A stretch of 64,000 nucleotides of DNA from Nitrospirota bacterium (GTDB lineage: Bacteria; Nitrospirota; Nitrospiria; Nitrospirales; Nitrospiraceae): positions 62,001-126,000 of the forward strand of contig JAPLLG010000007.1 in the NCBI GenBank assembly GCA_026387665.1. The letters are read 5' to 3'. A program made the position numbers and the translations under genes. The stretch's first letter is position 1, and each line of letters begins with the position of its first letter. Below the pieces are notes generated by a model that ran no database searches, was not told the DNA's origin, and saw only the letters and a program-made list of their open reading frames with translations. Positions 23,614-62,244 of this stretch are shown here, piece by piece.

Positions 23614-23738
23614 CAGGCTGCTGAAAAATGCCGCCAGCTTCGTTCTCGACTCATCGAAATCCTCAACGTACCCATGAGGGTACGCCTCCGGTTTCGACTC
23701 GCCTGCGGCCTTGCTGACAGCCTTTTTGAGCAGCCTGC
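23613..23738 (+). repeat. 126-bp palindromic 3' end element, copy A
   Basis: The head GCAGGCTGCTGAAAAA at the left end pairs with the tail TTTTTGAGCAGCCTGC at the right, with one G opposite G mismatch at position 11. The centre is a CGTACCC/GGGTACG hairpin. The first G is the last base of the TAG stop of the upstream gene. It fills the space between two convergent genes. Element orientation equals that of the upstream gene. Confidence 0.9.
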
Positions 23739-41059: not shown

Positions 41060-41184
41060 CAGGATGCTGAAAAAGTCCGCCAGCGTCGTTCTCGCATCGT
41101 TCAGACCCTCAACGTACCCTAAAGGGTACGCCTCGGGCCTTCACTCGCTGCGGCCTTGCTGGACGGCCTTTTTGAGCATCCTGC
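41059..41184 (+). repeat. 126-bp palindromic 3' end element, copy B
   Basis: The head GCAGGATGCTGAAAAAG pairs with the tail CTTTTTGAGCATCCTGC, again with a single G opposite G at position 11. The centre is CGTACCC TAAA GGGTACG. It follows thiD in the same orientation and separates it from the next, codirectional gene. Confidence 0.9.
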
Positions 41185-43342: not shown

Positions 43343-43792
43343 ATGATGACCGAAAACCGCCAACAAGTCCTGACGACTCTGTACCCTCTCTACAAAAAAG
43401 AAGTCTACGCACGCCGTGGACAGATGATCTGGCTCACTGCCTTCGGTTCACTCGGCTCGATCGCGATGTTATGCGCGCTCATTTTGAGCCCAGAAAAAGA
43501 TCAGCTGACCTCCCTCGAAACCCTGCTCATCGGACTCGCAAGCTTGCTCTGGTGTGGACTGATTTGTTCACTGATCCTCCAGCAACAATACCGCCACCGG
43601 CAGGCCAAGCAAATCCTGATTCAACTCGAACAGACGCTGCGATTATACGAAGAAGGATTATTTCTGGAACATCAGGCTCTCTATCCAGAAGGGTGGAAGA
43701 CCGCCTGGCTACGCGACCGAACGGGACGACTCTACTTCACGACACTTGGCCTGCTGACAGCGTTATTCCTCCTCGCCCTCCTCTTCCCCTGA
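43343..43792 (+). CDS. Small membrane protein of unknown function
   Basis: The 149-residue protein has two hydrophobic segments near residues 29-47 and 58-78 and a third at the C-terminal end (130-149). A basic and polar loop of about 50 residues lies between the second and third. It has no motif I know. It begins 4 bases after the hydrolase gene. Its TGA stop is followed directly by CAGG, then by a GCTGAACGATGAAC-type palindromic array. Confidence 0.7.
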   Translation: MMTENRQQVLTTLYPLYKKEVYARRGQMIWLTAFGSLGSIAMLCALILSPEKDQLTSLETLLIGLASLLWCGLICSLILQQQYRHRQAKQILIQLEQTLRLYEEGLFLEHQALYPEGWKTAWLRDRTGRLYFTTLGLLTALFLLALLFP

Positions 43793-43890: not shown

Positions 43891-44017
43891 ACAGGCTGAT
43901 CAAAACGGTCATCCAACAAGGCCGCAGCCGATGGCAACACCGGAGGCGTAGCCTCTGGGCTACGTTGAGGATGTTGCCGAGGCGAGAACGAAGTTGGGGA
44001 CCGTTTTCATCAGCCGC
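43891..44017 (-). repeat. 126-bp palindromic 3' end element, copy C (tandem with D)
   Basis: Left ACAGGCTGATCAAAACGG pairs with right CCGTTTTCATCAGCC. Read on the minus strand, the head is the right end. The centre CGTAGCCCAGAGGCTACG keeps pairing by a C-to-G and G-to-C double change compared with copy B. It lies downstream of copy D relative to the FGE-fold gene, in the same orientation. Confidence 0.85.
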
Positions 44018-44023
44018 TCTCGC

Positions 44024-44150
44024 ACAGGATGCTCAAATAGACGATCCGACTAGGCCGCAAGGAGCCTGGCGACTGAGGCATACCCTCTGGGTACGTCGCA
44101 GGGAGACAGACGACTGAGAACGACGTTGGGCGTCTATTTCAGCATCCTGC
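44024..44150 (-). repeat. 127-bp palindromic 3' end element, copy D
   Basis: The right end GCAGGATGCTGAAATAGACG (minus strand) pairs with the left end ACAGGATGCTCAAATAGACG. Its first base on the minus strand is the last base of the TAG stop of the FGE-fold gene. It differs from copy G2 at only four positions. One of these (GCATACCC instead of GCGTACCC) breaks a pair in the central hairpin. Confidence 0.9.
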
Positions 44151-44968
44151 TAGGATTTGGCGCAGCGAAAGCCCGTATAACTATTGCGCGTCTCTGGCGG
44201 GAGCTTGAATCGTCCATAGGCGAGTAAATACTTGGGCAAGTCGGACCAAGACCCGCCTCGTAGCACTTTGAATGGTCCCTGCTCCGGTCCCTGAGGATTT
44301 CGTTCCGGCGCGTTGTCGTAATAGCTCGCGTCGTACCAATCCTGCACCCATTCCCATACATTGCCGGCCATTTGGTACAGACCGAAGGCGCTCTTGCCTG
44401 ACTCGTAGGACAGCGCTGGCATCAAGACCTGGCTGTAGCTGAACCGCGCGCCCAACGCGAAATTTGCCCGCTCCTTGGTTGGCAGCTGATTACCCCAGGG
44501 ATAGAGACGGCCATCCGTTCCTCTGGCCGACTTCTCCCATTCCGCTTCGGTGGGCAGCCGCTTCCCCTTCCATCGGCAATAGGCATCCGCGTCGGCCCAA
44601 TCCACGCCAATCACCGGACGATCGCCATGCTGCGACAGATCGACCATGTTCCATTGCCACGGCGCGACACGATGTGTGGCGGCAAGGAACGAGGCGTACT
44701 GTTCCGTCGTCACCTCGTGGAGATCCATAAAAAACGCAGGAAGCCAGACCTGATGTTTGGGCCGCTCATCCTCTAACGCCTGCCCTCCGTCCGATCCCAT
44801 GGCGAACGTCCCTTCAGGAATCTCGGCCATGGGAGTCTCCACTACTGCCGCCTGTTCAGCTGGTCTATTTTTCCGCAGGCGTTCAAGCTGAGCCTGCGCA
44901 CAGTCCGCACTTGCGAGCATGACAATCAAAAGAGGGATGAGAGAGGAAAATCCAAGCGAGAACCGCAT
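44150..44968 (-). CDS. Exported FGE-sulfatase-fold (SUMF1-like) protein without the catalytic cysteines
   Basis: The 272-residue protein has a signal peptide (MRFSLGFSSLIPLLIVMLASADCAQA), followed by a formylglycine-generating-enzyme fold: IPEGTFAMGSDGG, LHEVTTEQYASFL, GKRLPTEAEWEKSARG, NVWEWVQDWYD and LRGGSWSDLPKY. True FGE has two Cys within and after GGSW (GGSWxCxxxxC); here the region is GGSWSDLPKYLLAYGRF with none, so formylglycine formation is unlikely. It may bind or modify a periplasmic partner. ATG 44968 begins the signal peptide; an earlier TTG is an alternative. Tandem repeats lie on both sides. Confidence 0.85.
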   Translation of the reverse strand: MRFSLGFSSLIPLLIVMLASADCAQAQLERLRKNRPAEQAAVVETPMAEIPEGTFAMGSDGGQALEDERPKHQVWLPAFFMDLHEVTTEQYASFLAATHRVAPWQWNMVDLSQHGDRPVIGVDWADADAYCRWKGKRLPTEAEWEKSARGTDGRLYPWGNQLPTKERANFALGARFSYSQVLMPALSYESGKSAFGLYQMAGNVWEWVQDWYDASYYDNAPERNPQGPEQGPFKVLRGGSWSDLPKYLLAYGRFKLPPETRNSYTGFRCAKS

Positions 44969-45055
44969 GCGCGGTAGCATACACAAGCCTGCGCCATCGT
45001 GCGAGGGGCATGCGAGATCGGCTAGAAGATCGAGCCGGGATATATTGCGGAATAG

Positions 45056-45122
45056 GCAGGATCGTCAAAGCGGTCATCCAATGAGGCGAGAACAACGTTG
45101 GTGGCGGTTTTCACCAGCCGCT
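45056..45122 (-). repeat. Truncated palindromic 3' end element, copy G1
   Basis: It matches copy C at both ends but lacks about 60 central bases, including the central hairpin, between ATCCAA and GAGGCGAGAAC. It stands next to copy G2, as C stands next to D, separated by a similar short spacer. It lies upstream of the FGE-fold gene. Confidence 0.75.
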
Positions 45123-45127
45123 CGCGC

Positions 45128-45254
45128 GCAGGATGCTCAAATAGACGATCCAACTAGGCCGCAAGGAGTCTGGCGACTGAGGCGTACCCTCTGGGTACGT
45201 CGCAGGGAGACAGACGACTGAGAACGACGTTGGGCGTCTATTTCAGCATCCTGC
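45128..45254 (-). repeat. 127-bp palindromic 3' end element, copy G2
   Basis: The element is 123/127 identical to copy D by direct comparison. Its first base on the minus strand is the last base of the TAG stop of the methyltransferase gene. The central CGTACCC TCT GGGTACG hairpin is intact. With D it forms direct repeats that flank the FGE-fold gene. Confidence 0.9.
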
Positions 45255-45910
45255 TAGACAAGCCCGCCGACGACCCAATGCCGGTCATCCGGCACATCAA
45301 TCATCAACCGGCTCAAATTCATTTCCGCTAACTGCGCCGCCACCTCATCTTCCGTGAAGGCCGCGAGCAGCGAGTTATAAAAATCTCTCCTCAGAATGTC
45401 CGGCGCCCCGGAGGCATACAAATCGACGATGGCCTGCGCCGCTTCCGGCGACTCAGGCCTCAAGAGATCCATCACCAGCACCGGCGAGCCGGGCTTCACC
45501 GCTAATCGCAGATTATGCCAAAACTGAAGGGGGTTCGGCACATGGTGCAACAAACTATTGGAGATCGCGGCATCGGCCAGCTCACCCAGCGCAACGGTCT
45601 GGAAACGCTCACAGAGGAAAGTGATACGACCGGACAGGCCCGCCTGCCGCACCGCCTCCGCCGCCAACTGCACCATCGGGGCCGACGCATCGACGCCGGT
45701 CATCCGACAGCCAGGCATTGCGCGCGCAAAACGAATAGGTATATCGCCGGGGCCACAACCAAGATCGAGCACATGGCCCTCGGAGAAATCGGGGAAGTAT
45801 GTGCGAAAGCGATCGACGAAGCCCTGGTTCTCTTGCGAGAAATCCGCCGCCGCATACGCCTGGGCCTGCGCGTCATTCTCCATCAGTTCCGGTTCGAGTA
45901 TTCGGTTCAC
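45254..45910 (-). CDS. SAM-dependent class I methyltransferase
   Basis: The 218-residue cytoplasmic enzyme has the SAM-binding motif I VLDLGCGPGDIPIRFA near residues 47-62, motif II acidic residue in MTGVDASAPMV, and LHHVPNPLQFW as the post-II region. The substrate is unknown. It is similar in layout to UbiE/Coq5 and to small-molecule methyltransferases. It is divergent from HU, whose promoter lies in the 196-base interval. Its stop shares a base with repeat copy G2. Confidence 0.88.
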   Translation of the reverse strand: MNRILEPELMENDAQAQAYAAADFSQENQGFVDRFRTYFPDFSEGHVLDLGCGPGDIPIRFARAMPGCRMTGVDASAPMVQLAAEAVRQAGLSGRITFLCERFQTVALGELADAAISNSLLHHVPNPLQFWHNLRLAVKPGSPVLVMDLLRPESPEAAQAIVDLYASGAPDILRRDFYNSLLAAFTEDEVAAQLAEMNLSRLMIDVPDDRHWVVGGLV

Positions 45911-46106: not shown

Positions 46107-46379
46107 GTGAATAAAACTGAACTCATTGAAGCGATCGCCAAACATGCCAGCCTCTCAAAGGCCTCGGCAGGCAGAGCATTGGAAGGGGCATTGTCCGCGA
46201 TCAAAGCCACGCTCAAGAAAAAGCAGACTGTTGCTCTGGTCGGATTTGGCACGTTCAGAGTGAGCCACCGGGCCGCTCGCATAGGCCGCAATCCTCGTAC
46301 GGGCAAGGCCCTCAAAATCAAAGCAGCCAAAGTTCCAAAATTCAAGCCGGGCAAAGCACTGAAGGATGCATTGAACTAA
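46107..46379 (+). CDS. HU-family DNA-binding protein
   Basis: The 90-residue histone-like protein bends and compacts [32 protein letters not shown] is the helical dimer part, [25 protein letters not shown] is the conserved beta arm with the Pro at its tip, and the end is basic. The start is GTG with AAAAGGGAATCAC upstream, and a strong promoter lies 55 bases before it. It could equally be IHF-like, but the sequence follows HU. Confidence 0.95.
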
Positions 46380-54969: not shown

Positions 54970-55887
54970 GTGGACCAACAGAATAACCGGCAATCACAAA
55001 CTGGCCAGACGGATCGGCCACTGATCATCCTTGGCTGCGGCTATACGGGCAGGTTCATCTTGCCGCTGACCGTCCAACGCGAAACCGCAACATGGGCCAC
55101 CAGCCGGAACCCAACGCAACAACTCGCGATGGTGCCTCTCTCGCAGCGACTGGAATTCGATCTGGCCCGCCCTGCAACCTGGGACCATCTGCCAGCTGGA
55201 GCTGACCTCATCTGGTGCTTTCCCGCCACTCCCCTCTCGGCCGTGCAGCAATGGGCCGGGACGCAGCGTTCACGATTCAACCACCTCGTCGTACTCGGTA
55301 GCACCTCTGCCTACGAGGTCGCCGATGACTCCACCGACTATCCCCCATCCTGGATCGACGAATCAGCCCCGATCGACCGGACGAAACCACGGGTGCAGGG
55401 AGAAGAATATTTACGAACCGAACTCGGCGCCATCCTGTTGCGCGTGGCAGGCATCTACGGCCCAGGAAGAAACCCGTTGGATTGGATCGCACAAGGCCGT
55501 GTCGGTCCATCGAGGAAATACGTGAACCTGATTCATGGAGAAGACCTGGCAGCGATCTGCCTCGCTGCAATCGAAAAGGGAACGCCAAGCGAAGTCTATA
55601 ACGTCAGCGACGGGGTGCCATATACCTGGAAGGGAATCTGCGACGCGGCCCAGCAGCGCTGGGGCGTAACCTCGTCAGCAACACAAGAAGACCCTTCACC
55701 GGGAAAACGAATCAACAATGCCAAGCTTCAATCAAAACTCGGCTATACGCTGAAGTATCCGGACTTGCACGAAGCTCTTGCATTGATTGAGTCAACGAAC
55801 GGAATAGAGGAACAGGATGGTCAAAATGGCTTCCAGCAAGGCCCGAGGCGAGAGGAAACCGGAGGCGTACCCTCAGGGGTACGTTGA
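54970..55887 (+). CDS. NAD-dependent epimerase/dehydratase-like protein (YeeZ-type SDR)
   Basis: The 305-residue protein has the Rossmann loop LIILGCGYTGRFI near residues 19-30 and the SDR family block RVAGIYGPGRNPLDWI. It lacks a clear YxxxK active-site pair at the normal place, as do YeeZ-like proteins. The GTG start at 54970 is preceded by AGGATACTCTG. Codons from about residue 281 to the end (25 residues, EEQDGQNGFQQGPRRE... onward) lie inside repeat copy E, so the native C terminus was replaced by readthrough into the repeat. Function is unknown; such proteins often act on nucleotide sugars. Confidence 0.85.
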   Translation: MDQQNNRQSQTGQTDRPLIILGCGYTGRFILPLTVQRETATWATSRNPTQQLAMVPLSQRLEFDLARPATWDHLPAGADLIWCFPATPLSAVQQWAGTQRSRFNHLVVLGSTSAYEVADDSTDYPPSWIDESAPIDRTKPRVQGEEYLRTELGAILLRVAGIYGPGRNPLDWIAQGRVGPSRKYVNLIHGEDLAAICLAAIEKGTPSEVYNVSDGVPYTWKGICDAAQQRWGVTSSATQEDPSPGKRINNAKLQSKLGYTLKYPDLHEALALIESTNGIEEQDGQNGFQQGPRREETGGVPSGVR

Positions 55888-55937
55888 GGATTCCGTCGAG
55901 CCGAGAACGAAGCTGGAAGGCATTTTCACCATCCTGT
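55812..55937 (-). repeat. 126-bp palindromic 3' end element, copy E
   Basis: Right end ACAGGATGGTGAAAATGCC (minus strand) pairs with left ACAGGATGGTCAAAATGGC. The first base on the minus strand is the A of the TGA stop of the CPBP gene. The outer arm has changed on both sides relative to copy B (GCT to GGT and AGC to ACC), which keeps pairing. The facing plus-strand epimerase reads into it. Confidence 0.9.
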
Positions 55938-62106: not shown

Positions 62107-62244
62107 CAGGCTGCTGGCAGGATGCTGAAAAAGTTCGCCAGCTTTGTTCTCGCCTCGAAAGCATCCTCAACGTAGCCCTGAGGCTACGCCTCCGGTGCTT
62201 TCATCGGCTGCGGCCGCGCTGGACAAACTTTTTGAGCATCCTGC
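62106..62244 (+). repeat. Palindromic 3' end element, copy F, with a leading stub
   Basis: The stub GCAGGCTGCTG at 62106-62116 is the head of a second copy (A-type), whose first G is shared with the TAG stop. The full copy at 62117-62244 (128 bp) follows, with head GCAGGATGCTGAAAAAG and tail CTTTTTGAGCATCCTGC. The centre is CGTAGCC CTGA GGCTACG, the same paired change as in copy C. Confidence 0.85.

Follow-up and report, generated by a model that had tools for sequence, protein, structure and literature searches.

In a Nitrospira genome (G000; 2.64 Mb, 99.8% complete), a gene for an FGE-sulfatase-domain protein is bracketed by two nearly identical repeats in the same orientation, raising the question of how such repeats come to surround a gene and whether the gene can be lost through them. 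The locus lies in a stretch of 64,000 nucleotides, hereafter the window. The FGE gene (44150-44986, minus strand; 278 aa; PF03781, E 8.5e-59), whose closest homologues are from Nitrospira, is followed 1 nt from its TAG stop by element D (44025-44148, plus strand), by a short spacer (44016-44024) and by an outer, full-length element C (43892-44015, plus strand; nhmmer 92.9 bits). Its upstream neighbor, a class I SAM methyltransferase gene (45254-45910, minus strand; 218 aa; PF13649, E 4.3e-16), has the same arrangement, with element G2 (45129-45252, plus strand) 1 nt from the TAG stop, a spacer (45119-45128) that aligns with the C-D spacer in the two-unit alignment, and element G1 (45057-45118, plus strand), in which 61-62 central nt are missing when it is aligned with C and with the intact element found there in the relative G002. 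The original prediction had described these two gene-end pairs, a match of 123 of 127 bases between D and G2 in the same orientation, and a G1 that shares both ends with C and lacks about 60 central bases; alignment bears out all of these points, and all four elements have one orientation. A 175-nt stretch (43979-44153 against 45083-45257) matches at 94%. The D/G2 identity of 97.6% is the joint highest among 101 family copies of the genome, for which the all-pairs median is 79%, and the next relatives of D within the genome reach at most 82%; the likeness of D and G2 is thus far beyond chance. Among the 150 full-length matches listed, C and D are also the only pair less than 300 bp apart.

The four elements are part of a dispersed family of hairpin repeats of about 125 nt (124-126 nt). 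The first family search of the genome matched 40 places. At least 150 full-length copies were found with a covariance model based on 41 of them; at about 125 nt each, 150 copies represent roughly 0.7% of this Nitrospira genome. Four other copies lie in the window, at 23615-23737 (minus strand), 41061-41183 (minus), 55813-55935 (plus) and 62119-62243 (minus), the last two at positions kept in the relative G010. The family is present in 46 of 46 sampled Nitrospiraceae, most of which carry at least 17 copies; copy numbers are lower in other Nitrospirales, and only weak matches are found elsewhere in the phylum. The family appears undescribed so far: Rfam and literature searches, the latter reaching at most a minority of subscription journals, returned no description of it, and the counts published for N. 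moscoviensis concern REPs and not the present family (PMC12306157). A known RNA family was discarded as a candidate, the only Rfam matches at curated scores in the window being two tRNAs.

When folded individually, each of four copies formed a single long hairpin (about -57 to -71 kcal/mol) whose arms pair across the entire element. Arm sequences vary yet pairing is kept, with at least two Watson-Crick types at 22 of 42 pairs in 130 copies, and the same copies display two near-invariant internal stretches, AAGGCCGCA and GAGAAC. On the consensus strand, which is antisense to the gene whose stop adjoins the element, G-T cells outnumber A-C cells outside the apex (163 vs 67). This excess hints at selection acting on that strand, whether as RNA or as single-stranded DNA, with the caveat that the structure was derived from the consensus strand itself and that strand-biased mutation could act in the same way. 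In several relatives (loci L118, L122, L125 and L173), about 35-70 extra central bases lie between the two parts of the element, indicating that the hairpin apex can be enlarged.

The position of the elements relative to stop codons accounts for their orientation around the FGE gene. With genes called as open frames, without a gene finder, we considered antisense frames of at least 100 codons at the 101 copies with flanks and found that the stop of such a frame starts exactly 1 nt past the right end in 46, while on the left side no offset between 0 and 7 nt gives a count above 2. Of 42 TAGs in the flank, 36 are the in-frame stop, compared with 10 of 84 control TAGs further out. The orientation of an element relative to its gene is therefore fixed, and adjacent co-directional genes that each carry such an element consequently have direct repeats around one of them. 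The FGE and methyltransferase genes are adjacent, co-directional and each joined at the stop to an element, which explains why FGE lies between direct repeats. Genome-wide, neighboring elements less than 3 kb apart are direct in 19 cases and inverted in 8 (p 0.05).

A strong hairpin 1 nt past a stop codon resembles REPs, and the likeliest role of these hairpins would be that of mRNA 3′-end structures affecting translation, termination or stability. REPs located within 15 nt of a stop codon have been reported to lower translation (PMC12306157), and REPs of the GTAG class provide flanking reading frames with their TAG stop (PMC3733652). Scanning C-D and G1-G2 with a simple terminator search yielded no convincing candidate.

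We then turn to the origin of the near-identical units. The gene order abhydrolase-FGE-methyltransferase is conserved across the genus. In its other clades, the methyltransferase ends with H (or Y) and a stop, and the element usually follows after a short spacer. The ending in G000, G002 and G043 is V-TAG joined directly to CAGGATG, with variants in G010 (TAG|CGGATG) and G015 (V-TAG with a remnant). TAG|CAGGATG is the junction of the FGE end and, at the methyltransferase, is confined to this clade, while D-type elements are found at the FGE end outside the clade too (G011, G017 and G032). An FGE-end-type junction at the methyltransferase in this clade only, together with D-type elements at the FGE end elsewhere, points to the direction of copying: judging from these outgroups, the FGE end was probably the source of the D unit and its stop codon, and the methyltransferase end the recipient. 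The copied tract would consist mainly of the spacer, D and the stop codon. According to this model, recombination or gene conversion involving both gene ends placed a D-type element with its spacer and TAG beside an older resident, and this copying would have left D and G2 near-identical.

The closest relatives help in ordering these events. At the methyltransferase end, G002 has an intact element pair and G010 a single element, and at the FGE end both retain only remnants of C-D. As the pair of G002 is intact at the very place where G1 is shortened, the central deletion of G1 is a later event, in agreement with the earlier proposal that one unit had lost its hairpin.

That proposal had, however, attributed the two units to duplication of a whole C-D pair onto the second gene end, which would require C and G1 to have diverged faster than D and G2 or to have been partly converted. 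The intact pair of G002 and the restriction of same-spacer tandem pairs to these two ends, among the matches listed, fit such a duplication, but C and G1 match at only 55 of 66 bases over their common parts (83-88% alike), against 97.6% for D and G2. Moreover, C is closest to the FGE-end element of another species (G003, 93.6%), while the left half of the intact G1 is closest to a methyltransferase-end element (95% to that of G042); full-length G1, however, is closest to an FGE-end element of G004 (93.6%), which leaves some room for duplication of the whole pair. On balance, we consider such a duplication unlikely. C and G1 look more like older residents specific to their sites than like the halves of one duplicated pair, so that the earlier idea stands for a unit copied between the ends, as the shared stop/element junction suggests, and probably not for the complete C-D pair. 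Outgroup genomes with C-D and G1-G2 units at unrelated loci, or with single independent insertions, either of which would have contradicted the prediction, were not found.

The original prediction further held that recombination between D and G2 would delete the gene between them, and proposed comparing the presence of FGE across strains. Among 31 genomes compared, mostly MAGs, FGE is absent between its two neighbors in five (G006, G015, G018, G034 and G042), in which the best FGE matches elsewhere are at most 55% identical. A tree of the 31 genomes built from the flanking genes requires five changes and rejects a single common origin, and because the outgroups carry FGE, the absences are losses; as reconstructed on this tree, FGE has been lost five times independently. 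In a further genome, G033, the FGE match (L167) contains one internal TGA and could be a decaying copy or reflect a sequencing error. In G006 (L155/L173), the methyltransferase is found as two matching pieces with an overlap at query residues 112-144, which would fit duplication of part of its interior.

We compared the flanks of the leftover elements with those of the two gene ends. In G042, the left flank is 0.87 identical to an FGE-end flank and the right flank 0.93 identical to a methyltransferase-end flank; the corresponding values in G006 are 0.75 and 0.83, and shuffled left flanks reach a maximum of 0.67 (G042) and 0.65 (G006). In the G006 element itself, the left arm is of FGE type and the right arm of methyltransferase type, and their pairing is no longer full. 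Recombination between the two repeats should yield just such junctions: an exchange between an FGE-end and a methyltransferase-end element, through an enzymology that is presumed, would delete FGE and leave one hybrid element. Judged by these junctions, at least two of the five losses occurred by inter-repeat recombination. In G042, a chimera test found no internal switch point and the element is of methyltransferase type almost throughout, a point against the recombination account, which would require a crossover in its first few bases or later conversion; the evidence for deletion in this genome is thus carried by the flanks and not by the element. G018 and G034 have kept one element, with left flanks that are not diagnostic. 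G015 (L172) has about 300 bp of unrelated DNA in the place of FGE and most of the elements, and only a right-end element remnant is left, which looks like a different kind of event. Deletion between the FGE-end and methyltransferase-end elements, as anticipated by the prediction, is thus found in relatives; no excision between D and G2 themselves was observed.

The FGE losses might instead have nothing to do with the repeats and represent ordinary deletions or replacements within a variable region, with one element left since each gene end has one. Two genes nearby, for HU and a small membrane protein (46107-46379 and 43343-43792 in the window), are indeed present or absent among relatives without elements on both sides, two other gene absences near direct pairs lack bounding elements, G015 has unrelated DNA where FGE was, and diagnostic junctions are found in only 2 of the 5 losses. 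The exact exchange of flanks in G042 and G006, and the mismatches between the hybrid arms of the G006 element, are difficult to reconcile with this explanation, which we regard as doubtful, and we favor recombination between the elements.

To place the FGE locus in its genomic context, we checked 17 close direct pairs across four relatives. Twelve of them keep the intervening gene wherever both flanks could be scored, and neighboring direct pairs in general resemble each other no more than random pairs do (mean 0.797, permutation p 0.32), so that a general homogenization of such pairs was rejected; both observations count against the recombination account. Besides FGE, one extra element-bounded gene absence was found, at C7:523601-526169 of the genome studied. 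At this locus (L185:1003-3691, corresponding to G000:C7:523602-526290), three same-orientation elements, the outer two of which are 93.4% identical, separate a DDAH-like gene and a gene for an ArgZ-like arginine dihydrolase. In place of both genes, G002 has one element with both outer flanks; G010, G015 and G043 also lack the genes, with no element or a trace of one, and the pattern could reflect either a gain in G000 or losses in the relatives.

Taken together, these results support, with a probability of about 0.7, an account in which hairpins locked to stop codons most likely have a role at mRNA 3′ ends, D was copied to the methyltransferase end, and FGE was deleted in relatives by recombination between elements. 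This account would tie a family of 3′-end hairpins to recurrent gene loss in nitrifying bacteria. A more radical interpretation is that the elements are the sites of a dedicated, integron-like recombination system of Nitrospirales that shuffles gene-plus-element units, which would amount to gene shuffling without an integron integrase or arrays. The fixed polarity behind the stop codon, the better hairpin on one strand, a length like that of long attC sites and gene presence/absence at two loci are compatible with it. We nevertheless consider it very improbable, given that no integron integrase in the genome scores above cut-off (best TIGR02249 match 79.6 bits vs 265), that the attC core bases are not conserved in the main type, that the copies are dispersed, without arrays, and that most genes between direct pairs are kept.

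Compared with known systems, the elements are best regarded as a new dispersed palindromic repeat family, as they differ in defining features from REP, ERIC and attC. Like REPs of the GTAG class (PMC3733652), they are high-copy, dispersed extragenic palindromes whose termini can provide a TAG stop. However, the palindrome of the GTAG and CGTC classes measures 20-40 nt, compared with 124-126 nt here, and the unpaired GTAG/CGTC tag is lacking: TAG lies by the end in 42 of 101 copies, preceded mostly by C or T and by G in only about 14%. The RAYT (Y1_Tnp) partner gene of GTAG REPs is also missing, no Y1 transposase being found in this genome, and in relatives an element or fragments lie within about 1.5 kb of only 2 of 20 Y1_Tnp genes checked, so that a RAYT-driven REP identity was rejected. 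Y1_Tnp proteins as such occur in 25 of 41 Nitrospiraceae genomes (e.g., L215-L234), unlinked to the repeat family. ERIC/IRU elements of enterobacteria (PMC2229807) are similar in being intergenic, high-copy, imperfect palindromes of about 127 bp, but their host group is unrelated to Nitrospirales, and they have TA at both termini and a TA target duplication, whereas the left end of the present elements has no TA preference. With MITEs such as RUP and Correia/NEMIS, the family shares short length, absence of coding capacity, many copies and terminal inverted repeats. It differs from them in that its arms vary yet keep pairing and that a search for Y1_Tnp and integron integrase detected no partner transposase. 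It may also lack their target duplication, as no matching flanks were seen, nor any fresh insertion with an empty site. The RYYYAAC/GTTRRRY core sites of integron attC are replaced in the main type by CAGC/GCTG, with pair 25-102 being G-C in 96 of 130 copies, and an attC identity was discarded on both core sites and integrase. Finally, as in gene deletion between direct repeats generally, two same-orientation repeats collapse to one and the intervening gene is lost; unlike in ordinary direct-repeat deletion, the polarity of the repeats is here set by stop codons, such that co-directional neighbors tend to be bracketed.
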